From assembly GCF_024363565.1 (NCBI RefSeq), contig NZ_JAJEKE010000006.1, forward strand, positions 1-64,000: 64,000 nucleotides of DNA, given 5' to 3'. Of this stretch, positions 10,913-56,115 are shown piece by piece. Positions within the stretch are counted from its first letter, which is position 1, and every line of letters begins with the position of its first letter. The notes beneath the pieces were generated by a model. That model saw nothing but the letters and a program-made list of their open reading frames with translations. It was not told the origin of the DNA and did not search any database. Both the position numbers and the translations under genes were made by a program. This DNA is from Lutispora saccharofermentans. Lineage in GTDB: Bacteria > Bacillota > Clostridia > Lutisporales > Lutisporaceae.

Positions 10913-11141
10913 ATAAAAAAATAAACCCCGTCTCCTGCAAAGAGACGGAGCAAACCGCGGTACCACTCTAATTGATCATCATTTAATAATCCACTTGAAG
11001 CCCTATAACGGCGGGCGCCGTCTTGCCCTACTATTTTCAGGCAGCAGCTCCTGGGCGAGTTTGAAGATTGAACGCCGCCATTTTCCACCGTTTCATGGCT
11101 CTCTATAAGCTTCGTATTCCTCTACTATTCCCATTCTTCAC
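10913..11141 (-). promoter_or_regulatory. T-box leader of leuS
   Basis: On the minus strand this leader has the T-box antiterminator signature AGTGGTACCGCGG (10955-10967) followed by a terminator hairpin CTCCGTCTC...GAGACGG and a T run. Upstream are the Stem I features (AGAGAGCC, GGTGGAAAATGGCGGCG). Uncharged tRNA-Leu would favour readthrough. Candidate leucine specifiers are CTT or CTC within the segment near 11060; I could not decide which. Confidence 0.93.
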
Positions 11142-11160
11142 TTTTATAATATTGTATGTG

Positions 11161-26236: not shown

Positions 26237-26815
26237 TTATAAGGCTTCCCTTTCATTGACCAATATCGTTTCTGCAATTTGCTTCATGGGACAGCGCTTA
26301 TCCATGCTGAGCTTTCTCATGTGGTTATAGGCTTCGTCTTCATTTAAGCCATACTTTTTCATCATCAGTCCTTTAGCGATATCAATGACCTTTCTGTTTT
26401 CAAGGCTTTCCTTCATCCTATTGTAATCTTGCTTTATTCTTTTCAGCTCTTCTCCCTTTGAAACAGCTATTTCTATAGAAGTCAGCAAAGTCTTTTCATC
26501 CACAGGCTTTATGAGATAACCCATTACTCCGGCCTCCTTCGCCTGCTCAACAAACTCGTTTCCGCTGTATGCGGAAAGCAGTATCACCGACAGGGCCAGG
26601 TTCTCATTTACAATGACCTTTGCCGCCTTAATGCCATCCAAAAAAGGCATTTTTACATCCATTAAAACTAAATCAGGTTTCTTTTTTCTGCACATTTCTA
26701 CCGCATCAAAACCGTCTGAAGCTTCACCTGCAACCAAGTACCCATTTTCCTGCAGTATTTCACATAGGTCCATTCTAGTAATAGGCTCATCATCGGCTAT
26801 TACTATCCTTCTCAT
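26237..26815 (-). CDS. eutV: EutV response regulator with ANTAR RNA-binding domain
   Basis: A 192-residue antiterminator. The receiver domain (1-120) has DDEP near the N-terminus and DLVLMDVKMPFLDG with the phospho-acceptor Asp. The ANTAR domain at 135-190 reads RKVIDIAKGLMMKKYGLNED and ends in CPMKQIAETIL. It binds dual hairpins in nascent RNA and prevents termination. The start is ATG 26815 after GGGGG; the frame extends to 26869 without support. The two candidate targets in the window are before eutA and eutS. Confidence 0.96.
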   Translation of the reverse strand: MRRIVIADDEPITRMDLCEILQENGYLVAGEASDGFDAVEMCRKKKPDLVLMDVKMPFLDGIKAAKVIVNENLALSVILLSAYSGNEFVEQAKEAGVMGYLIKPVDEKTLLTSIEIAVSKGEELKRIKQDYNRMKESLENRKVIDIAKGLMMKKYGLNEDEAYNHMRKLSMDKRCPMKQIAETILVNEREAL

Positions 26816-26902
26816 AATAGTACCCCCTTTGCACATTGGTTTAACTTTGCCCCTTTGCACAGCAGCCATTATGTCCCTCTTCTGATTTATATATATGTTT
26901 CA

Positions 26903-27340: not shown

Positions 27341-27718
27341 CTAAGACTTCGTTATGTTTGCGGTATTGAAGAAAAGCTGTCCTTGAAGGAGCTCTATTAT
27401 AGAATTCATAGCAGCTTCAATGCTTGCGATGTCCCCTGTTATCACCAGGGAACCGCTGAATCTGTCTAAGAATCCGATTTCTACTGAGGCTGCTTTTGTT
27501 GCAATATCGGCAGCGATAATGGCCGCTTCACTGGGGGTTATGGTGAGTATGCCAAGGGCTGCCTGCTTGTCTTCGCTTATCCCAAGCTTTTTATAAATCG
27601 TATGCTGCGGGCTGGCAATGATATGGGCAAGGGTGATCTGTTTGCCCGGAACGTATTCTTGTATTATTCTTTGTTTATTCTCTACCCCATTTTTATCATC
27701 CCCTCTTACACCAAACAT
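27341..27718 (-). CDS. eutS: BMC shell protein EutS (circularly permuted)
   Basis: A 125-residue permuted BMC protein of bent hexamer type. It has [20 protein letters not shown] and the second part [20 protein letters not shown] followed by [20 protein letters not shown], all characteristic. The first ten residues ([10 protein letters not shown]...) are extra compared with the usual start, but no alternative start codon suits. It is the first gene of the operon. Its GGGAAG ribosome site lies within the leader hairpin described for 27719-27792. Confidence 0.94.
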
Positions 27719-27792
27719 AAAAGCTTCCCTATCAAGACATAGTCTTGCAGCGGAAGCTTCATCGCTCTATATTGTACACCGTCGTACAATAT
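27719..27792 (-). promoter_or_regulatory. EutV-type dual-hairpin leader of eutS overlapping the ribosome binding site
   Basis: On the minus strand, hairpin 1 is ATATTGTAC-GACGGT-GTACAATAT (27769-27792, nine pairs, six-base loop). Hairpin 2 is AGC-GATGAA-GCT (27755-27766); AGCGATGAAGCTTCC matches the described EutV box AGCAANGRRGCUY except that loop position 1 is G. The GCTTCC at its 3' side pairs instead with GGAAGCTT at 27721-27728 to form an eight-pair stem enclosing CAAGAC/GTCTTG. This alternative stem holds the eutS Shine-Dalgarno sequence and is followed by TTTT. Confidence 0.8.
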
Positions 27793-27818
27793 TATATATA
27801 TTCAATTGTAATAGCATT

Positions 27819-27903
27819 TATATATAACGTGAAAAAGATTTTATAGCAATAATGTTATCAGTCAGCATAACAGCTATGTAGAATATTTAATGCGTTATAT
27901 ATA
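27819..27903 (-). repeat. MITE-like repeat copy A (85 bp, deletion form)
   Basis: Ends are the perfect inverted pair TATATATAACG / CGTTATATATA. The interior (read on minus) is ATTCTACATAGCTGTTATGC, CTGACTGATAACATTATTGC and TATAAAATCTTTTTCACG, nearly identical to the two ends of the longer copy at 36119-36312. Joining the two ends of copy B at its GATAAC direct repeat gives copy A precisely. The element sits between the eutS leader and an unrelated coiled-coil gene. No transposase is encoded. Confidence 0.78.
27821..27849 (-). promoter_or_regulatory. Promoter-like pair inside repeat copy A, facing eutS
   Basis: Minus strand TTGCTA (27844-27849), 17 bases, TATATA (27821-27826). The predicted transcript would begin a few bases before the eutS dual-hairpin leader. 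The equivalent pair exists with identical spacing in copy B. Confidence 0.55.
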
Positions 27904-27943
27904 GTAATTCTGCTTTTATTCCAGTATCATTTATATTTGTCCG

Positions 27944-28552
27944 TCAAGCCTTCAGCAAGCTTTCATCCAATTTATCCATTTCGTCTACGCCCACAATGCC
28001 GTGCAAATATGAATAAAGCCTGTTAACCCGCTCATCCATATCCACTTTTTTTTGAATCAGTTCCATCAGGGCTTCTCTGATCCTGCTTATATCCTGCTGC
28101 ATCTCATCGGCTTCCTGTTTGCTTTCATTGATAAGCTCATAGGTTCTCTTCACAGTTTCTTTCAATAGTATGGCATTTTCTTGGTCTATTGCAGAAGGCA
28201 ATGCCTCAAGCTCTTCCAATATCAATGGTATCCTTTGGTTTATGTGCAGGATCTCTTTTTGGGATTCTTTCAGCGGTCCTAAAAAGGCTTCATTATTATT
28301 TTCATTGAGCTCGTTTGAAAGATGGAGTATTTTATTCATCGAAATCTTTTTTCTTTTTTCCAGTTCCTTAAGCTCCTGCTCCAGATTTTTTTCCTTTGCG
28401 AGAAGCTCTTCCAGCTTTGCTATCGATTTCTGCATGCTTCTTGATTTAAAATTAGAAAACAGTTGTATCCATTCAGGGGTATAAATTAAAATAGGAATTT
28501 TATTTTTTCTTATCGTTGCACCATCTATATCAGGTTCTTTCAAAATCATCAC
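27944..28552 (-). CDS. Coiled-coil protein of unknown function
   Basis: A 202-residue soluble protein, almost entirely helical, with long runs of Glu, Lys and Leu (about residues 38-180) predicted to form a coiled coil. I do not recognise a family. Two possible starts occur at the N-terminus (MMILKEPDIDG...). It lies upstream of the repeat and eutS on the same strand but is not a known eut gene. No signal peptide or membrane segment. The reading frame has normal codon use for this genome, so it is likely real. Confidence 0.7.
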   Translation of the reverse strand: MMILKEPDIDGATIRKNKIPILIYTPEWIQLFSNFKSRSMQKSIAKLEELLAKEKNLEQELKELEKRKKISMNKILHLSNELNENNNEAFLGPLKESQKEILHINQRIPLILEELEALPSAIDQENAILLKETVKRTYELINESKQEADEMQQDISRIREALMELIQKKVDMDERVNRLYSYLHGIVGVDEMDKLDESLLKA

Positions 28553-28635
28553 CCCTGCTTCCTAATGATCCCCAAATCCTTTATTAATACTAATGATAGC
28601 ACAAGAGCAAATTTGAGTATATAGTAGCATATACT

Positions 28636-28662
28636 CAAAAAGGAAGTCCAAAAGGACTCCCT
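28636..28662 (-). terminator. Terminator-like hairpin facing the coiled-coil gene
   Basis: Minus strand GGGAGTCC-TTTT-GGACTTCC followed by TTTTTGAG. It has nearly the same stem as the terminator at 29031-29061. It would stop transcripts leaving the palindromic element on the minus strand. Confidence 0.75.
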
Positions 28663-28687
28663 AATATCAATGGCAAACTCCATAAGC

Positions 28688-28900
28688 AATAGCATCCATG
28701 TATAGTCACGTATAGTATATAAAAATTGATGACACTAATTCACTGAGCCTAAGAAAATCCTAACGCTTTCCAAAGGTCATCCGTGACCTGGGAAGCTTGC
28801 TCGGCGTCCGTGCCTCACATACGGCTTTTCTAAGGCTCAGCTCATAAGGGTCATTGACAATTTTTATATAAGCATACTTAGTCTATACATGGATGCTATT
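28688..28900. repeat. Large near-palindromic element (213 bp), possible MITE or structured RNA
   Basis: The 520-bp gap 28553-29072 contains no gene. It holds three nested inverted pairs: AATAGCATCCATGTATAG (28688-28705) with its exact complement at 28883-28900; TATATAAAAATTG (28716-28728) with 28858-28870; and TGAGCCTAAGAAAA (28744-28757) with one mismatch to 28826-28839. The centre holds a further hairpin, GCTTTCC...GGGAAGC around AGGTCA/TGACCT. The element is flanked by two near-identical terminators on the minus strand. No transposase or coding potential was seen. Confidence 0.7.
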
Positions 28901-29030
28901 TTACTGCAGCGAAATATATAAAAGTTACGAGTTACGAGAGCTAGCGGGGTCATAGAGGAATACATGCATCCTGAGTTCTAAAACTCGTGCCCAGATATAC
29001 ATACCATTCTACTTATCGGTGCTGTATCAA

Positions 29031-29061
29031 AAAACTTAAGGAAGTCCAAAAAGACTTCCTT
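29031..29061 (-). terminator. Terminator after oppA
   Basis: Minus strand AAGGAAGTC-TTTTTG-GACTTCCTT followed by AAGTTTTTT. It ends the substrate-binding protein transcript just after the stop codon. Confidence 0.88.
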
Positions 29062-29072
29062 GCGATGGAAAT

Positions 29073-30743
29073 TTATTTTATATATGTGTAAATTAAGTCG
29101 GGATCTGCTCCCACCAAAGACCTTACATAATTAACTAGTTTATCTGATTGTACATATGCATTGCAGCCCCAGAATATAGGAACAATAGGCAGCTCATCTA
29201 AAAGTATTTTTTCGGCTTCAAATAATTTTTCGCCCCGCAGCTTTAGATCCGGCGTAGACTTAGCCGCCTTAACCATATCATCAAAAGCTGTATTGCTGAA
29301 TCTGCCTCTATTTACCCCATTTCCGGTTAAGTATACATCGATATAGGTCATAGCATCATCATAATCAGGGAACCAGTTGCCATAGGCGATATCAAAATCG
29401 CCATCATCAAGCAATTGGAAATATTGCTTTTTGGGTACCTGAACTATCTCAGTTTTTACGCCTAAAGTCTTTGAAAGCATATCCTGTACTGCTTCCATGT
29501 GAGTTCTTCTTATTGCATCATCTCTTGTTAGAAGCTTAAATGTAGGCAATTTTTCTACTGTCGTATTCAGTTCTTTCAAAGCCAGCCCTAAATACTCTTT
29601 TGCCTTTGCCTCATCAGCCTTAAGGGGAAGTGGATCATAAGGCGATTCAGCTGTATACTTATCACTAGCACCTGCAATTATCGGAGGAACATATCTGGTC
29701 GCCGGCAGTGCTCCATTTTTGGCTACTGATTTTGCAAAATCCTCTCTATTTATAGCGTATGATATCGCTTTCCTGAAATTTTTATTATTAAGAATCCCGA
29801 ACATATTTTTATCCTTGTTATTAAAGTTAAAGGATAGATAATAAGCGCCTCCATTAGGCATAAACTTTGCTTCACCCTTTTGTATATAAATCTCACTCAT
29901 ATCACTTGGTATTGATGCAGAAAGCAACTCTCCGGTGTCATATAGGCTAATAGCCGTTTTGGGATCAGGTATGATTACAAGATCTATTAAGTCTGCTTTA
30001 ACTTTATCTTTATCCCAGTAATTTTCATTTTTAGCAAGAACAATTTTCTCCTCATGCTTCCATTCTTGAACAACAAAGGGACCATTGTAAACCATCTTGT
30101 CTGATCCTGAAGAAAACTCCTCCCCGTATTTTTCAACTATGTCTTTGCGTGATGGCCAATAAGGTAAAAATCCGAGAACTCTCAGGAAATATCCTGTAGG
30201 AGCCTCCAATTGTATTTCAAGAGTTTTTTCATCTATAGCCTTTACTCCTACTTCCGCTTTGTCAACTTCATTTTTATAGAATTTTTCTCCGTTTTTAATT
30301 AAGAAACCCATTATTTCAGAGTAAGCTCCAGCAGTATTAGGATCAAGTAGCCTTATTATTGAATATTCAAAGTCTTGGGCTTTTACAACAGCACCATCAC
30401 TCCACTTTGCATCTCTTAAATGGAAAGTATAAGTTATACCGTCAGAGGAAACCTCCCAGCTTTCTGCCATACCTGGTTGTATTTTTCCATCATACACTCT
30501 GGTCAAGCCTTCTAAAGTATGTCCTAAAACAAAAATCGATGTCAAATCACTGCCTTTTTGAGGGTCCATTTGAGGTGGCTCAGCATCCAAAGATAGATTA
30601 AGAACCATTTTCTCATCTGTTGATCCTTGGCCTTCTGCCTGCGCATTATCTGTAGTAGAGGCTTTAGGACTACATGCTGTAAAAACTAAGCTGATAATAA
30701 GCAACATGGAAACAACAAGCAACAAAGTTTTTCTTTTCATCAT
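29073..30743 (-). CDS. oppA: Oligopeptide ABC transporter substrate-binding lipoprotein (OppA family)
   Basis: A 556-residue extracellular peptide-binding protein. The N-terminal lipoprotein signal ends in VFTACSPKAS with lipobox Cys23. Family segments are the SBP_bac_5 core: LTRVYDGKIQPGMAESWEVS, TYTFHLRDAKWSDG, and IAYGNWFPDYDDAMTYIDV near the C-terminus. No permease or ATPase genes follow, so it probably shares another Opp/Dpp system. It is encoded just downstream of dppA and the muropeptide genes, which suggests it imports murein-derived peptides, an inference. Confidence 0.93.
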   Translation of the reverse strand: MMKRKTLLLVVSMLLIISLVFTACSPKASTTDNAQAEGQGSTDEKMVLNLSLDAEPPQMDPQKGSDLTSIFVLGHTLEGLTRVYDGKIQPGMAESWEVSSDGITYTFHLRDAKWSDGAVVKAQDFEYSIIRLLDPNTAGAYSEIMGFLIKNGEKFYKNEVDKAEVGVKAIDEKTLEIQLEAPTGYFLRVLGFLPYWPSRKDIVEKYGEEFSSGSDKMVYNGPFVVQEWKHEEKIVLAKNENYWDKDKVKADLIDLVIIPDPKTAISLYDTGELLSASIPSDMSEIYIQKGEAKFMPNGGAYYLSFNFNNKDKNMFGILNNKNFRKAISYAINREDFAKSVAKNGALPATRYVPPIIAGASDKYTAESPYDPLPLKADEAKAKEYLGLALKELNTTVEKLPTFKLLTRDDAIRRTHMEAVQDMLSKTLGVKTEIVQVPKKQYFQLLDDGDFDIAYGNWFPDYDDAMTYIDVYLTGNGVNRGRFSNTAFDDMVKAAKSTPDLKLRGEKLFEAEKILLDELPIVPIFWGCNAYVQSDKLVNYVRSLVGADPDLIYTYIK

Positions 30744-30811
30744 ATTTCCCCCTCTTAATTTTATTGGCTTATATATTACGTGAATATATAACAGATAGAA
30801 AAAATGTTTAA

Positions 30812-30854
30812 TAAAAATCCAGTAGAAAATAAAGACTATTTTCTACTGGATTTT
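30812..30854 (-). terminator. Terminator between dppA and oppA
   Basis: A perfect 18-pair stem AAAATCCAGTAGAAAATA with its complement, loop GTCTT, followed on the minus strand by TTTTATTA. It separates the dppA transcript from oppA. The remaining gap to dppA is AT-rich without other structure. Confidence 0.9.
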
Positions 30855-31012
30855 GAACACTTGGAATTGTATCCAAAGCAGCAGTGCATAGATAATAATT
30901 TTTTATTCAACTATCAAAATGCATTGCGTAATATTCAGAATATTATGTGTTATTTATATATTCTATGTGATTTTAAATATACCTTCTCACTTTAATAAAA
31001 ATTCTATATAAC

Positions 31013-31864
31013 CTACAGATAGTTCGAATCGGCTACAGAATACGCCAATGTCCTCAGGACAGAGAATACTTTAAAAGCTTGAATATAGTCGTCGCACTCA
31101 TAGGTCGTGACGCGCTCGCTTACTCTGATTACACCGGGCACATAGGTGGCCTTGTGAGCCATAGCAGGTGTATTCCATACCAGTTCTATTTTAATAGGAG
31201 GCTTAGATTTGTATAAATATCCATATTTTTCTATATCCTCCACCACTCTTCTGGAAGCTTCCCGAAGCTCACTTCTTACAGTCTCCACAGGCCTGCATAA
31301 TGCAGAGAATCTTCCAAGGGCTTTCTTGGTCTCCACGGTTTCAATGGTCGGGAAGAACTGTTTTGCCTGTGCTACAGTGGTGTCGTCGCCTGAAAGCATC
31401 AATACAGGCACATTGAAATAGCCTGCTACCTCAGCATTTATTTCCGCTTCGCCTACTTCCTTTCCGTTTATCTTGAAGCTGTATAATATAGACGGGCTAT
31501 ATGTGTGATCCATTATCGCAAATGGAGTTCCGAATCTTCCATGATACCCTATAAAAATTACTCCGTCAAAAGTATCATCGATGCTATCCATCATTGAAAG
31601 AGTCTTATCGGAACCGCAGGCGAGTAAGAAATCTCCCTTCAGCATTCCGATAGGTATATTGAGCATATCGCCGTGAGAATCCCCAATAACTGCAATGCCG
31701 CCGCCTTCGTTTATGCCCTTTATGACTGCATTGGCCTCTTCAGCCATAAGCTGCCGGCCTTCCCTATATAAATCATTGTTTTCTACTCCTACCTGATTTG
31801 GACTGACAATGCCTCCGATACCTTCCATGTCAACAGATACATAAATTTTTTTCACATATACCAC
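31013..31864 (-). CDS. dppA: D-aminopeptidase DppA (M55 family)
   Basis: A 283-residue zinc peptidase that cleaves D-amino acids from D-Ala-D-Ala-type peptides. The N-terminal SVDMEGIGGIVSPNQVG carries the metal-binding Asp-x-Glu, and GDSHGDMLNIPIGML and FIGYHGRFGTPFAIMDHTYS carry the other ligands. SGDDTTVAQAKQFFP is also typical. It is grouped with YkfC-like, DgcA and beta-lactamase-like genes, a common muropeptide salvage set. Confidence 0.93.
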   Translation of the reverse strand: MVYVKKIYVSVDMEGIGGIVSPNQVGVENNDLYREGRQLMAEEANAVIKGINEGGGIAVIGDSHGDMLNIPIGMLKGDFLLACGSDKTLSMMDSIDDTFDGVIFIGYHGRFGTPFAIMDHTYSPSILYSFKINGKEVGEAEINAEVAGYFNVPVLMLSGDDTTVAQAKQFFPTIETVETKKALGRFSALCRPVETVRSELREASRRVVEDIEKYGYLYKSKPPIKIELVWNTPAMAHKATYVPGVIRVSERVTTYECDDYIQAFKVFSVLRTLAYSVADSNYL

Positions 31865-31895
31865 CCTTTCATATAAATAATAAATAATTTATGCC

Positions 31896-32717
31896 TTATC
31901 TCCCAAATACAGTTCCCACTCCATTTATCATTTTGTGCAAATCTTCCCTATAATCATCACTTCCCGGATTGATGCTGTTTATCAATACCCTTCCTTCCCG
32001 GCCGGTAGAGTGAATATAATTTCCTTCACCTATATACATGGCCACATGGCCCGGGAAAAACATCAGATCTGCCGGTTTTATATGTTCCAATGAAATGGAT
32101 TTCATGTATTCTTCTTTCAAATTGGCATCCCTATATATTATTATACCATTTAGCATATATGACATGGATACAAATCCTGAACAATCTATACCCATAGGGC
32201 TCTTGCCTCCCCATCTGTACTGGGTTCCCATGTAGGCAAAAGCTGTGTCTATGATGCTCTTTCTTGCCGCCTCTTCATCCCGCTTCAAATCAAAACAAGG
32301 CATCTTCCTGAATACTTCTTTGCGAATCCAGCCCCTTCTTTTATCTATAAGCTCAACTTCACCCCATCTTTCTTCTTCTCTGCCTGTCATATGGACAAAT
32401 GCTCCCATTGTCAGTGTTTCCAGCTGATAGCTGGCATATTTCGGTTCGGCCAATACATCGACTATCCTACCGGATATATAGCAGTCTGCATTTTCCTGCC
32501 ACTCAATTGCCCTATTGCTATCGATTAAAATATTGCTTTCGTGGACATAGCCCTCATAATCGTAATGTGCTTTAACTCTGTACCATCCGTCATCAAGGGC
32601 CTCTACCAGCTCCAGCACCATGCCGTATAAGCTCTCATCCGCAATTTCGCTGTCAAAGGAAGGCTTCAATTTCAAAGGTATGACATTCTTTCTGGTAATG
32701 GCAAGCTTATTATTCAT
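31896..32717 (-). CDS. NlpC/P60 endopeptidase with SH3-like domains (YkfC type)
   Basis: A 273-residue protein expected to cut gamma-D-glutamyl bonds in murein peptides. Residues 1-120 contain two SH3-like domains (RKNVIPLKLKPSFDS, DGWYRVKAHYDYEG). The catalytic NlpC/P60 domain has MGIDCSGFVSMSYMLNG (Cys nucleophile), PGHVAMYIGEGNYIHSTG (His) and further residues. There is no signal peptide, so it likely acts on internalised peptides. Start ATG 32717 has GGAGG eight bases upstream and overlaps the dgcA stop. Confidence 0.9.
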   Translation of the reverse strand: MNNKLAITRKNVIPLKLKPSFDSEIADESLYGMVLELVEALDDGWYRVKAHYDYEGYVHESNILIDSNRAIEWQENADCYISGRIVDVLAEPKYASYQLETLTMGAFVHMTGREEERWGEVELIDKRRGWIRKEVFRKMPCFDLKRDEEAARKSIIDTAFAYMGTQYRWGGKSPMGIDCSGFVSMSYMLNGIIIYRDANLKEEYMKSISLEHIKPADLMFFPGHVAMYIGEGNYIHSTGREGRVLINSINPGSDDYREDLHKMINGVGTVFGR

Positions 32718-33807
32718 CAAAGGCACCTCCGTCAAAATCAATGTTTTTTATGCCAAGTCCTGCTCCATCACTGAGTATTAATTTGTTTTTCGAGAGCTCT
32801 ACTCCACCTGAAATAGGCTCCTTTTCTATCAAGTCAACAGCATCCAAATCAGCTCTGGTAATATTCAATTTGCCCCCTGCAAAATGAGCTGCTGCAGCTA
32901 TGCCCACCTTGCTTTCGATCATGCAGCCTATCATGCACTCTACCCCGCAGCTTTCCGCCATAGCGTTTATCTTCTGCGCATTGTGAAGGCCGCCGCATTT
33001 CATAAGCTTTATATTCAGTATATCGGCAGCTCTCTCTTTGAGCAAAATAAAGCAATCATGGGGAGAAAACAAAGCCTCATCTGCCATAATGGGGGTTTCA
33101 ACATTGCTGGTAATATATTTCAGCCCTTCTATATCAATAGCCTTCACAGGCTGCTCCACCAACTCAATATCAAAGCCTTGATCCTCCATAGCCCTTATGG
33201 TTTTTATAGCTTCCTTCGGTGTCCATCCCTGGTTGGCATCAAGCCTTAACTGTACATCAGGCCCCACAGCGTCTCTGATGGCCTTAACCCTCCTGATATC
33301 CAGCTTGCCATCTACCCCTACCTTAGTCTTCAATGTCTTATATCCATTTTTGACATAGTTTATCGCATCCGCAGCCATCTCCTCAGGTGAGTTAACGCTT
33401 ATGGTTATATCTGACTCGATCTCTTTCCGCGCACCTCCGAATAACCTGTACAAGGGTATATTGAATCTTTTGGCGAAAAGGTCATAAAGCGCTATATCCA
33501 CTGCAGCCTTAGCGCTCGTATTATGAACTGCCGAGGATTCAACCTTTCTCATTATGGCTTCCAGCTCTTCGATATCCATTCCTACTACCGAAGGTGCTAT
33601 ATAGTTCTTAATTGCACCTTCTATTGATTCATTGGTATCACCTGTAATTACGGCTGTGGGAGAAGCGCTGCCATAGCCTATGTCTCCTGTATCTGCGGTA
33701 AGCTTTACTATTAAAGCATCTGCAACAGATACCTGCCTCAGTGCCGTCTTGAACGGTTTTTTTAATTTCATGGAAATCAGCTCCGTCTCAACGGAAACAA
33801 TTCTCAT
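32710..33807 (-). CDS. dgcA: Dipeptide epimerase (L-Ala-D/L-Glu epimerase)
   Basis: An enolase-superfamily enzyme that interconverts L-Ala-D-Glu and L-Ala-L-Glu from murein. The 365-residue product has the substrate-loop KLKKPFKTALRQ, the catalytic lysines in KTLKTKVGVDG and KLMKCGGLH, and metal-ligand strands LRLDANQGW, ELVEQPV and MADEALF. The start is ATG 33807 with AGGAGG seven bases upstream. In a row with the muropeptide peptidase genes, which supports the assignment. Confidence 0.95.
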   Translation of the reverse strand: MRIVSVETELISMKLKKPFKTALRQVSVADALIVKLTADTGDIGYGSASPTAVITGDTNESIEGAIKNYIAPSVVGMDIEELEAIMRKVESSAVHNTSAKAAVDIALYDLFAKRFNIPLYRLFGGARKEIESDITISVNSPEEMAADAINYVKNGYKTLKTKVGVDGKLDIRRVKAIRDAVGPDVQLRLDANQGWTPKEAIKTIRAMEDQGFDIELVEQPVKAIDIEGLKYITSNVETPIMADEALFSPHDCFILLKERAADILNIKLMKCGGLHNAQKINAMAESCGVECMIGCMIESKVGIAAAAHFAGGKLNITRADLDAVDLIEKEPISGGVELSKNKLILSDGAGLGIKNIDFDGGAFDE

Positions 33808-33818
33808 TGGGCCACCTC

Positions 33819-34598
33819 CTAAATTTTCGCGCAAAAATGCTCATACACTGTTTCAGAAACCTTGCCTATGATATGCTTTGCCAATACATTGCTTTCTGCC
33901 TCGGTAACAAATACTCCCAGCAGATAAACTGCATCCGGCAGATAAAAAATACCTATATCATGATTAAGATTTTCCAAGTCTCCCGATTTATGTGCTACTA
34001 CAATATCCTCAGCAATATATCTTTTAAGCAAATCCTTATGCTTTTGCCTCTTCAAAATGTTCAATGCCAGATCGCACATATTTCTGTCAAGTATCCTTCC
34101 TTTATAAAGGGCTTCCATCATATAAGCCATATCCCGGGCAGTAGTCAGGTTCTGCCTTCCCTGCCTTGCAGCTTCAAAATCCATCATCTTCCTGTTCAAA
34201 GCCGTACCTTTAAGCTGCATCCGCTCTGCTTGAGCATTGATATTGTCATAGCCTAAAATATCTATAAGTACATTGGTAGCAGTGTTATCGCTTATGATGA
34301 TCATAAGGGTTATGAGATCCCGTATACTGTAGCAGGCCACATCCAGCTCCGATATTATGCTGAAATCAACCTTTTCAGAAGGTTTGATGAAGACCATCTC
34401 CTCAAGGGAAAGCCTGCTCTCCATAACTTGTTTCAACGCTTCGATCATTATAAGGATTTTTATGGTGCTGGCAGAAGGAACCACCCTTGCTGCGTCCAAT
34501 TCAAGCACCGCTTCTTCTTTAAGCAAATCCTTCAGCACTATGGAAACCTTTGCACTCATCCCGTCAAAGCAGCTTAATATATCATCTTTAAGCATCAA
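33819..34598 (-). CDS. Class A beta-lactamase-like serine hydrolase, apparently cytoplasmic
   Basis: A 259-residue serine hydrolase of the penicillin-binding fold. The SxxK motif STIK is at residues 44-47 (PSASTIKILIMIEAL), SDN at SDNTATNVLIDILGY, TTARDMAYMMEAL after the omega loop, and the KSG triad HKSGDLENLNHD near 210. No signal peptide is visible, unlike secreted beta-lactamases, which is odd. The linkage to muropeptide genes suggests action on peptide intermediates rather than on antibiotics. Not a proven resistance gene. Confidence 0.82.
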   Translation of the reverse strand: MMLKDDILSCFDGMSAKVSIVLKDLLKEEAVLELDAARVVPSASTIKILIMIEALKQVMESRLSLEEMVFIKPSEKVDFSIISELDVACYSIRDLITLMIIISDNTATNVLIDILGYDNINAQAERMQLKGTALNRKMMDFEAARQGRQNLTTARDMAYMMEALYKGRILDRNMCDLALNILKRQKHKDLLKRYIAEDIVVAHKSGDLENLNHDIGIFYLPDAVYLLGVFVTEAESNVLAKHIIGKVSETVYEHFCAKI

Positions 34599-34623
34599 AT
34601 CCCTCCTAGGCTTTATTTATAAA

Positions 34624-34668
34624 CAAAAAATTCGGAAGAAAAAGCTATGATAACTCTTTCTGCCGAAC
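34624..34668 (-). terminator. Terminator-like hairpin 26 bases before the beta-lactamase-like gene
   Basis: Minus strand TTCGGCAGAAAGAG... pairs with CTTTTTCTTCCGAA, followed by TTTTTTG. It lies in a 239-bp gap with no upstream gene on that strand, so it is more likely a leader attenuator than the end of an operon. The rest of the gap shows no recognised riboswitch. Confidence 0.55.
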
Positions 34669-34837
34669 TTCATTTACGATAATAAATGCTGCGACATAAA
34701 TACGATCAGAAAAGTCAATGGCATTACTGCCATTGAGGCTATCCCAACCTTAAAATATATATTCTATATATTTTGAAAAATTCCTCTTACATTAATAGTA
34801 TTTTTATGATAGCTTATATAAAGAGGAGGGATTAAAT

Positions 34838-35176
34838 TTGAAATATACTACTGATACTACTTATATAGTAGGAAATTCCAAATCTCAGCAAAACAACCCC
34901 ATAACTCATGTATACGGGGCATTCTTTATGGGCTTCGTCGTCAACAGCCAGACCGAAGAAATAATCGATGTGGAATGCAATTCCATACTTCCTCTTACAA
35001 ATGAGTTCATAAAAACCATATTCATCGGAAAAAGCATCAGGCATGATTATGAGCAAATAAGAGCTGAAGTAGAAAAAAGATATCTGGGTTCATCCCAAAG
35101 AGCTGTTCTCGTCGCCTTCAAAGATGCTCAGAAGAAGTATGTTGATTTTAAATCAGGGAAAGAGGTTCAGCTATAA
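34838..35176 (+). CDS. DUF3870 family protein
   Basis: A 112-residue soluble protein of the uncharacterised DUF3870 family, with YGAFFMGFVVNSQTEEIIDV, CNSILPLTNEFIKTIFIGKS and RYLGSSQRAVLVAFKDAQKK. Start is TTG 34838 after GAGGAGGG seven bases upstream. It overlaps the converging radical SAM gene by six bases at its 3' end. The function is unknown. Confidence 0.85.
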   Translation: MKYTTDTTYIVGNSKSQQNNPITHVYGAFFMGFVVNSQTEEIIDVECNSILPLTNEFIKTIFIGKSIRHDYEQIRAEVEKRYLGSSQRAVLVAFKDAQKKYVDFKSGKEVQL

Positions 35177-36097
35177 TCCGTACTTCTTTCCCTGCCAGCT
35201 ATCCCTTTCAACAAGCTTATCATCTATTGCATTCAGCACTTCCCATTTATTGAGGCTCCACCAGGGGCCTATAAGGGTAGCCCGCGGTCCGTCTCCGGTA
35301 AGCCTGTGTATCACCATATCCGGCGGAAGCTTTTCGAGACAGTCCGCTACCAAACCCACATATTCATCCCTTTCCATCAGCTTAAGCGTGCCTTCTTCGT
35401 ATAGTTTCACCATAGGTGTATCTTTCATGAGATGGAGAAGGTGGAGCTTGATTCCCTGAGTTTTTGTACCCGCAACAAAATTGACGGTTTCAAGCATATC
35501 GACGTTAGTCTCGCCGGGCAATCCCAATATGCAGTGGGTGACGACATCAATATTTCTCTTTTTTAATTCTTCAACCGCGCTTACATAGGTCTCCATAGCA
35601 TATCCCCGGTTGATCAGCCTGGCTGTATCTTCATGAATGGTCTGCAGCCCTAATTCCACCCACAAATATGTACGGCTGTTCAATTCCTCCAGCAATTCAA
35701 GGATGTCGGTCGGCAAACAATCAGGCCTTGTTGCAATGGCCAGACCGATTACATTCTCCTTCTCAAGTATGGTATTATATTTTTCTCTCAAAACATCAAC
35801 AGGCGCATAAGTATTTGTATAAGCTTGAAAATATCCTATGTATTTTCCGCTCCTCCATTTTTTTTGCATCATAGCCTTGGCTTCCTCAAATTGAAGTGAC
35901 AGATCTTTGTTTTTCATGGTGAAGTCCCCGGAGCCTCTGGGGCTGCAAAATATGCACCCGTTTTTGGATACCCTTCCATCCCTGTTGGGACAGGTAAAAC
36001 CGCCGTCTAAGGATATTTTAAATATCTTTTCTCCGAATTTCTGCCTCAAAAAATAGTTGAGGCTATAATATCTTTTGTTACCCCATTCCATAGACAT
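35171..36097 (-). CDS. TIGR01212-family radical SAM protein (YhcC-like)
   Basis: A 308-residue radical SAM enzyme. The cluster Cys set is TCPNRDGRVSKNGCIFCSPR, giving C-x11-C-x2-C, an unusual spacing that is typical of this family. Further segments are GYFQAYTNTYAPVDVLREKY, ATRPDCLP and LHLMKDTPMVKLYE. Start is ATG 36097 (MSMEWGNKRYY) after GGGAGAG; the frame up to 36232 runs into a mobile repeat. The true substrate is unknown. Confidence 0.9.
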   Translation of the reverse strand: MSMEWGNKRYYSLNYFLRQKFGEKIFKISLDGGFTCPNRDGRVSKNGCIFCSPRGSGDFTMKNKDLSLQFEEAKAMMQKKWRSGKYIGYFQAYTNTYAPVDVLREKYNTILEKENVIGLAIATRPDCLPTDILELLEELNSRTYLWVELGLQTIHEDTARLINRGYAMETYVSAVEELKKRNIDVVTHCILGLPGETNVDMLETVNFVAGTKTQGIKLHLLHLMKDTPMVKLYEEGTLKLMERDEYVGLVADCLEKLPPDMVIHRLTGDGPRATLIGPWWSLNKWEVLNAIDDKLVERDSWQGKKYGL

Positions 36098-36118
36098 AAA
36101 CAACTCTCCCGAATCAAT

Positions 36119-36312
36119 TGTATATAAGTTGCAATAAAATTCTACATAGCTGTTATGCTGACTGATAACGATTGCGAAAGCTCCGGGACAAAGACTTTGT
36201 AAGCTTGCATAGGGTTGCGTCAAAACTAACAAACTCTAAGCCCCTTCACGATGCACTCTTATATCAGTCAGGATAACATTATTGCTGTAAAATCTTTTTA
36301 ACGTTATATATA
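36119..36312 (+). repeat. MITE-like repeat copy B (about 194 bp, full form)
   Basis: The right end is CGTTATATATA (36302-36312), with an imperfect left end TATATAAGTTG. Arms TTATGCTGACTGATAAC and TATCAGTCAGGATAAC are inverted with one mismatch. The centre has a hairpin ACAAAG-A-CTTTGT framed by AAGCT/AGCTT. The 335-bp gap from 36098 to 36432 otherwise shows only AT-rich sequence. Copy A at 27819-27903 equals this element with the segment between its two GATAAC repeats removed. A recombination or excision event is implied. Confidence 0.75.
36282..36310 (+). promoter_or_regulatory. Promoter-like pair in repeat copy B, facing the cyclophilin gene
   Basis: TTGCTG (36282-36287), 17 bases, TATATA (36305-36310). 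The layout is the same as in copy A. The cyclophilin start is about 120 bases downstream. Confidence 0.5.
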
Positions 36313-36432
36313 GCTTAAAAGTTACTATATTATTATAATATATTTTCCGGTTTATTGCCGCATAATATATTTTACATAGCCCTCCATTTATTATAGAATA
36401 GGTTTGATATACATATGAAAGGAAGATTTTGC

Positions 36433-36954
36433 ATGAACACTAATCCAATTGTAACAATCGAAATGGAAAATGGAAAAACTATAAAAATCGAGCTGTATCC
36501 GGATGTAGCTCCGAATACTGTAAAAAGCTTCATATCACTTGTGAACAGGGGCTTCTATGATGGGCTCATATTCCATAGGGTCATCCCCGGCTTTATGATT
36601 CAGGGCGGATGCCCTCAAGGATCAGGTACAGGCGGCCCCGGCTATTCTATAAAAGGAGAGTTTTCATCCAACGGATTCAAAAATGATTTAAAGCATGACA
36701 GGGGTGTCATCTCCATGGCCCGTTCCATGCATCCCGACTCGGCAGGCTCCCAATTCTTCATCATGGTAGAAGCAGCACCGCATTTAGATGGTGCTTATGC
36801 TGCATTCGGCAAAGTAACAGAAGGAATTGAGGCCGCAGATGAGATCGTAGATTCTCCGACAGATTTCAGAGATAGGCCTATGAATGACCAAAGGATGAAA
36901 AAGGTCACCGCAGAGACCTTCGGCGTCAGCTATGATGAGCCGGAAAAGCTGTAA
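36433..36954 (+). CDS. Peptidyl-prolyl cis-trans isomerase (cyclophilin type)
   Basis: A 173-residue cytoplasmic cyclophilin that speeds proline isomerisation. The signatures are NRGFYDGLIFHRVIPGFMIQ, GDGTGGPGY-like GTGGPGYSIKGE, GVISMARSMHPDSAGSQFFI and YAAFGKVTEG. Start is ATG 36433 after AAAGGAAG; the frame from 36415 has an ATG but poorer context. It has no signal peptide. A GC-rich hairpin (GGGCGC...GGCGCCC) immediately follows the stop. Confidence 0.95.
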   Translation: MNTNPIVTIEMENGKTIKIELYPDVAPNTVKSFISLVNRGFYDGLIFHRVIPGFMIQGGCPQGSGTGGPGYSIKGEFSSNGFKNDLKHDRGVISMARSMHPDSAGSQFFIMVEAAPHLDGAYAAFGKVTEGIEAADEIVDSPTDFRDRPMNDQRMKKVTAETFGVSYDEPEKL

Positions 36955-38021: not shown

Positions 38022-38310
38022 ATAAAAAAACCCTTCATCCCTGAAATAAAGGGACGAAAGGCATTGCTTCCGCGGTACCACCCTGATTAACACATGGTTC
38101 ACTCTGCCGATACGGAATAACCTGTATTCGATATCGCCCAGGTATAACGTCCTGGCTGCGTCTAAGTCTACTATCCTAAGATTTCGGTTAGAAATTCCGG
38201 GATGTTCTTCAAATGGGTTATCGTATCGGCCTCTCACCATCGCCGACTCGCTATGACTACCTTCCCAAATTACTCTTCCCATCATAATCTTTATACTGCT
38301 ATGCATTTTT
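38022..38310 (-). promoter_or_regulatory. T-box leader of asnA
   Basis: The minus strand has GGTGGTACCGCGG (38070-38082), followed by a terminator with arms CGTCCCT and AGGGATG and a run of seven T. Stem I features lie upstream (GGGAAGAG, GGTGAGAGGCC). AAC, an asparagine codon, occurs in the TTCTAACCGAAATC segment and is a candidate specifier; I cannot place the loop with certainty. Confidence 0.93.
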
Positions 38311-55974: not shown

Positions 55975-56015
55975 GAAAAAACTCCTATTTTAGTAAAGAA
56001 ACACTAAAATAGGAG
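55975..56015 (-). terminator. Terminator-like hairpin upstream of the scaffold gene
   Basis: Minus strand GGCTCCTATTTTAGT... with complementary ACTAAAATAGGAG and TTTTTTC. It lies in the 279-bp gap 55905-56183. It may end a short leader of the scaffold gene or back up the next terminator. Confidence 0.75.
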
Positions 56016-56115
56016 CCATCAGCCTAAAGCATTTACAGTGAGCCCCATCACTGCCTAATATTTTATCATATATTCTATTGAAATAGTATAAATATTTATA
56101 GATTCTTATGCGATC

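Follow-up and report, generated by a model that had tools for sequence, protein, structure and literature searches.

The two related repeats that precede eutS (copy A) and a cyclophilin gene (copy B) in Lutispora saccharofermentans are very probably copies of one family of non-autonomous IS630-family (Tc1/mariner type) transposons, in which the outward promoter of the original prediction is the transposon end itself and B is unneeded by the cyclophilin gene. Both copies lie exactly where they had been placed in the window, that is, the whole 64,000-nucleotide stretch that was analyzed (G000:C34:1-64000), and the genome searched (G000) comprised 4.32 Mb in 37 contigs and was 96.55% complete. 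The positions of the features are collected in Table 1.

Table 1. Features of the repeat copies, the eutS locus, and the cyclophilin locus (window coordinates; P-end, the end bearing the promoter-like motif)
Feature	Position	Strand	Remarks
Copy A, 85-bp IS630-type MITE (deletion form)	27819..27903	-	TA-flanked; P-end toward eutS
Copy B, 192-194-bp MITE with inner fold-back	36119..36312	+	P-end toward cyclophilin gene
TTGCTA-17-TATATA of copy A, 8/12 matches	27821..27849	-	Terminal inverted repeat plus adjoining sequence
Inner fold-back segment of B	36150..36277	-	Also occurs in many copies lacking TATATATAACG ends
Response regulator with ANTAR domain (EutV-like)	26237..26869	-	
eutS	27341..27718	-	
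eutS leader	27718..27790	-	ANTAR (EutV) antiterminator type by resemblance
Candidate TTCACG-17-TACAAT (9/12)	27805..27833	-	-35 inside A, -10 in flank
Candidate CTGACT-16-TAAAAT (9/12)	27838..27865	-	Wholly inside A
Candidate TTGACG-18-TGGAAT (9/12 by eye)	27947-27918		Just upstream of A
Cyclophilin-type peptidyl-prolyl isomerase gene	36415..36954	+	
TTTACA-17-TAGAAT, the cyclophilin gene's own promoter candidate (10/12)	36371..36399	+	Downstream of B

A genome-wide search for elements with these ends, which had been proposed as a check, revealed a multi-copy family dozens strong. Across the whole 4.32-Mb genome, the terminal sequence TATATATAACG occurred 49 times, compared with 24 times for the reversed control, and many of the occurrences formed facing pairs. 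At least 67 places matched query B, at least 69 matched query A, and at least 42 matched the inner piece, with overlap among these sets. The TATATATAACG count and the matches to A and B together exclude the possibility that A and B are merely two chance copies. The elements end in TATATATAACG/CGTTATATATA, are inserted at TA, and are short and transposase-free; 24 copies, ranging from 66 to 345 bp, were tabulated. Elements for which both ends were read had lengths of 66, 83, 85, 142, 148, 191-194, 207, 227, 237, 282, and 345 bp. In the 148- and 207-bp forms (L057, L055, L056, and L060), a GTCATTCTGAG...CAGAATGAC hairpin replaces the usual fold-back. Solitary TATATATAACG matches were also considered as full insertion sequences (IS); several lay within coding-like sequence, and none was complete in the stretches taken. 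Among the 22 genomes of the bacterial family, query B was matched at 1e-5 in this genome and in G002 only, and the 22-base element end was also present in a Clostridiaceae MAG (UBA7994, three records), a Clostridia MAG, and a Deltaproteobacteria MAG.

Comparison of insertion sites across relatives, another proposed check, revealed relatives lacking the element at the site of B and at that of the 345-bp copy on contig C37. Among the five congeners compared, both flanks of the B site were present without the element in G001, G004, and G005; G002 had approximately 360 bp of unrelated sequence there, and in G003 one flank only was shown. The C37 site was empty in G001 (ATTATGGTAGGAAG) and G005 and fell in an assembly gap in G002. 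A single TA was present at the empty C37 site, compared with two TA around the element (G001 and G005), and duplication of the TA target was likewise seen at the B site with G004. Empty sites were resolved at these two places only, among flank comparisons covering 9 of 22 tabulated copies, some of them single or short; for five copies (C1b, C29a, C29b, C33b, and C37), of which C29b reaches Ns, a single relative contig contained both flanks. The site of A has no empty counterpart because the gene order there differs in relatives. The C29a copy was common to this genome and G002, whereas two other sites were occupied by elements of different lengths, 227 bp here versus 58 bp in G002 at C1b and 282 versus 191 bp at C33b, implying that interiors have been lost in place.

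A source for the ends was found in a relative. An element on G001:C40, 1,175 bp in length with the ends TATATATAACGTGATAAAG.../TATATATAACGTGAAAATGATTTTACA..., has TATATATAACGTG ends around a two-frame transposase that matched the IS630 family model NF033545 (E values of 5.6e-40 and 7e-21) and also DDE_3. The P-end of A matched the two ends of this IS at 25 and 23 of 30 positions (the next best place in the locus gave 19/30), and the Q-end of A matched them at 20/30 and 21/30, so that terminal repeats are common to the family and an IS630-family element. The genome under study retains a remnant of a transposase of the same type on C14 (77 amino acids, 66% identical); an intact autonomous copy was not found in it, its two DDE_3 matches being an IS630 on C13 and one fragment. 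The C13 IS630 was rejected as the cognate element, with no TATATATAACG-type ends seen in its sequence or self-matches, and L108 was rejected as an autonomous element, with no transposase between its ends. A contig of the Deltaproteobacteria MAG, for which misbinning is possible, carries an IS630-like element (L109:4949-6081) whose right end equals the Q-end over 22 bases. Adjoining it is a gene that we take to resemble a REP-associated (RAYT-type) transposase. Taken together, the multi-copy family, the TA target, the empty sites, and the ends shared with the cognate G001:C40 element bear out the claim that A and B are MITEs and imply that they are IS630 derived. An IS630 transposase would recognize the TATATATAACG... 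terminal repeats and insert the element at TA, duplicating the TA.

The ends common to A and B were readily confirmed, copy A matching the two ends of copy B with E values of 5e-12 and 7e-11. The original prediction further held that A is B without the piece between two GATAAC repeats. This is right in substance, since A equals a 193-bp copy elsewhere on the contig (C34:90414-90606) minus 108 bp, with a 6-bp GATAAC junction repeat and two mismatches; taken literally it fails, with 27 mismatches against B, because the left end of B is a diverged variant (TGTATATAAGTTGCAATAAA). Derivation of A from B itself was therefore dropped, and a common form of approximately 192 bp is taken as the source of both. 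Parts of the long imperfect inverted repeat inside the element would have been lost between short direct repeats such as GATAAC, presumably by slippage, giving the 85-bp form A. The 66-bp form is similarly derivable from the ~192-bp form, at a TGCTG junction repeat; for the 83-bp form, testing gave no clear junction repeat (0-1 base).

The inner fold-back of B is abundant in copies without TATATATAACG ends, many of which have GATTTTACTGCAATAA-like flanks instead. As a repeat in its own right (36150-36277 in the window; loci L003-L132), it numbers dozens of copies, 126 to 344 bp long, in which modular insertions occupy two places. Another small hairpin, AAGGTGAATTGC...GCCCTGGGGCA (L005, L012, L019, and L110), recurs as a module in and beside fold-back elements at varying positions. 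For the inner piece of B, the folding energy is -49.3 kcal/mol (z, -5.8). In the outer arms of 38 distinct inner copies, 88.4% of cells were paired, compared with 83.7% with shuffled partners; none of 5,000 shuffles scored as high, and 44 cells were double changed, although these covariation counts are not independent events because the copies are related. Such covarying arms and so stable a fold would be expected if the repeats were immobile and served as conserved regulatory or structured RNA elements. That alternative is nevertheless highly improbable: it is weakened by the empty sites, the TA duplication, the IS630 ends, and the relatedness of the inner copies, and at the gathering threshold Rfam reported no family match at the repeats in the window.

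The motifs on which the promoter claim was based are present as described, with TTGCTA-17-TATATA in A directed toward eutS and TTGCTG-17-TATATA in B directed toward the cyclophilin gene. On the transposon reading, TTGCTR-17-TATATA would be the transposon end read outward, with TATATA made up of the tip plus the TA target. The two motifs match the promoter consensus at 8 and 7 of 12 positions, respectively, and neither rises above shuffled sequence, so that the family carries no outward promoter motif above chance. TTGCTR-17-TATATA was intact in 8 of 17 P-ends. Orientation toward the neighboring gene, which had been noted for A and B, is not a property of the family: the P-end faced a gene start in 7/17 copies, with neighbors assigned by mechanical ORF choice, and no orientation bias was apparent. 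These 17 were counted from the 24 tabulated copies, six of which had no P-end label and one of which (C11) was mislabeled; the fraction is 7/18 if C11 is kept. Copy A contains the stretch TATAAAAT, and it alone among the 17 copies has TGCTATAAAAT, which is close to an extended -10, where the others have TGCTGTAAAAT or a near variant; to judge from the sequence, this change could reflect selection for promoter use.

The proposal that B acts as an outward promoter for the cyclophilin gene was rejected, because a better candidate, TTTACA-17-TAGAAT, is found downstream of B, and relatives that lack B have conserved it. This candidate was identical in G002 and similar in G004 and G005, and the G004 and G005 sites lack B. 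On these comparisons B looks dispensable for transcription of the cyclophilin gene.

The eut gene set of the window comprises eutS, eutP, an ANTAR response regulator, and a sensor kinase. The eutS leader contains a hairpin at 27790-27771 and a small hairpin at 27767-27754, the latter overlapping a terminator-like stem at 27760-27721. Its first hairpin loop is GACGGT; the loop G4 is present, and the first loop base is G in both hairpins. In EutV/ANTAR-controlled eut operons, as outlined in PMC3369931, two small hairpins with hexaloops bearing A1 and G4 precede a terminator, and the ANTAR response regulator is encoded in the operon. The window's leader resembles this type in its two hairpins, terminator stem, and operon ANTAR regulator but differs in the first loop base, which is G instead of A; in G001 and G008 the first hairpin has A1 and G4, as in the EutV/ANTAR type. 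The leader is conserved in G001 and similar in G008, where both partners of a pair in the first stem have changed, and Rfam gave no report for it at the gathering threshold. Elsewhere in the window, Rfam identified two T-box leaders and a fluoride riboswitch (10938-11147, 38047-38294, and 56003-56061).

Upstream of this leader, both G001 and G008 have TTGACA-17-TAAAAT (11/12; shuffle p values of 0.02 and 0.01, respectively). That promoter was not found in the window's eutS intergenic region, which holds 13 sites at 8/12 or better (8.9 in shuffles), two of them at 9/12 and none at 10/12 or better. The region homologous to G001 extends only to 27792, which leaves 27 bp before A, and gene order breaks at this spot. 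The gene upstream (27944-28552), which is on the same strand and ends 40 bp upstream of A, is separated from eutS by approximately 22 kb in G001 and has other neighbors in G002 and G004. Upstream of this gene is a palindrome, TTTGAGTATATAGTAGCATATACTCAAA, at 28609-28650, which G002 has in identical form and G004 in part. eutS was present in 4 of the 22 family genomes, including this one, and the same junction without A was seen in none.

Since A occupies the expected position of the eutS promoter and is suitably spaced from the ANTAR-type leader, its AT-rich end may, with less than even probability, contribute to eut operon transcription. If A were the working promoter of the operon, the ancestral one would have been lost in the adjacent rearrangement, and polymerase would start from the end of A, just upstream of the ANTAR leader, using TTGCTA-17-TATATA, the straddling TTCACG-17-TACAAT, or TGCTATAAAAT. 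The promoter seen in G001 and G008 with no comparable site in the window, the end of G001 homology so near to A, the base change that brings A alone closer to an extended -10, and the precedent of Correia promoters (PMC10969869) all speak for this reading, which we consider possible but on balance doubtful: all candidate sites are at chance level, TTGACG-18-TGGAAT just upstream of A scores equally well by eye, readthrough from the upstream gene is possible, and the element end does not usually point toward gene starts. Thus, of the claim that a mobile element supplies the eutS promoter, the position of A and the missing ancestral promoter are in favor, whereas the candidates in and near A are not. 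Alternatively, A may do no more than ride along or form a hairpin in the 5' leader, with readthrough or a promoter lying upstream accounting for eutS transcription, a credible arrangement to which we give somewhat less than an even chance. TTGACG-18-TGGAAT, the closely preceding same-strand gene, and the fold of A (-15.4 kcal/mol; z, -2.6) are consistent with it, although TTGACG-18-TGGAAT coincides in part with the upstream gene's stop codon. The fuller proposal that an MITE end replaced the lost ancestral promoter of an ANTAR-controlled ethanolamine operon and that the change from TGCTGTAAAAT to TGCTATAAAAT improved it is rather unlikely.

Modular construction is a feature of ERIC elements. 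In the account of PMC3049150, BOX and ERIC are intergenic fold-back repeats like the A/B family, BOX being modular as well, and the likeness considered here is one of architecture. Precedents are known both for IS630/TA MITEs and for promoter-bearing MITEs in the accounts consulted. The former include RUP (repeat unit of pneumococcus), an intergenic MITE of approximately 107 bp with a TA target and ends common to the IS630 element IS630-Spn1 (PMC2229807); the A/B family shares its intergenic location, TA target, and IS630-type ends but differs in end sequence and in its span of 66 to 345 bp, which is due to the internal fold-back and its deletions. The latter include the Correia elements (NEMIS) of Neisseria, small elements with terminal repeats whose sigma70-like promoters can drive neighboring genes (PMC10969869 and PMC3049150); promoter activity was measured there, whereas the A/B family has a weak sequence match only. 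A literature search for nested MITEs in Clostridia, or for eutS with miniature inverted repeats, found nothing on point among the papers listed. The A/B family thus offers a concrete clostridial case of an IS630 MITE family with empty sites, a cognate IS, and an in-place deletion series, and it illustrates how easily the end of a TA-target transposon imitates a -10 box. If A does drive the eut genes, a transposon end would have been domesticated as the promoter that feeds an RNA antitermination switch.
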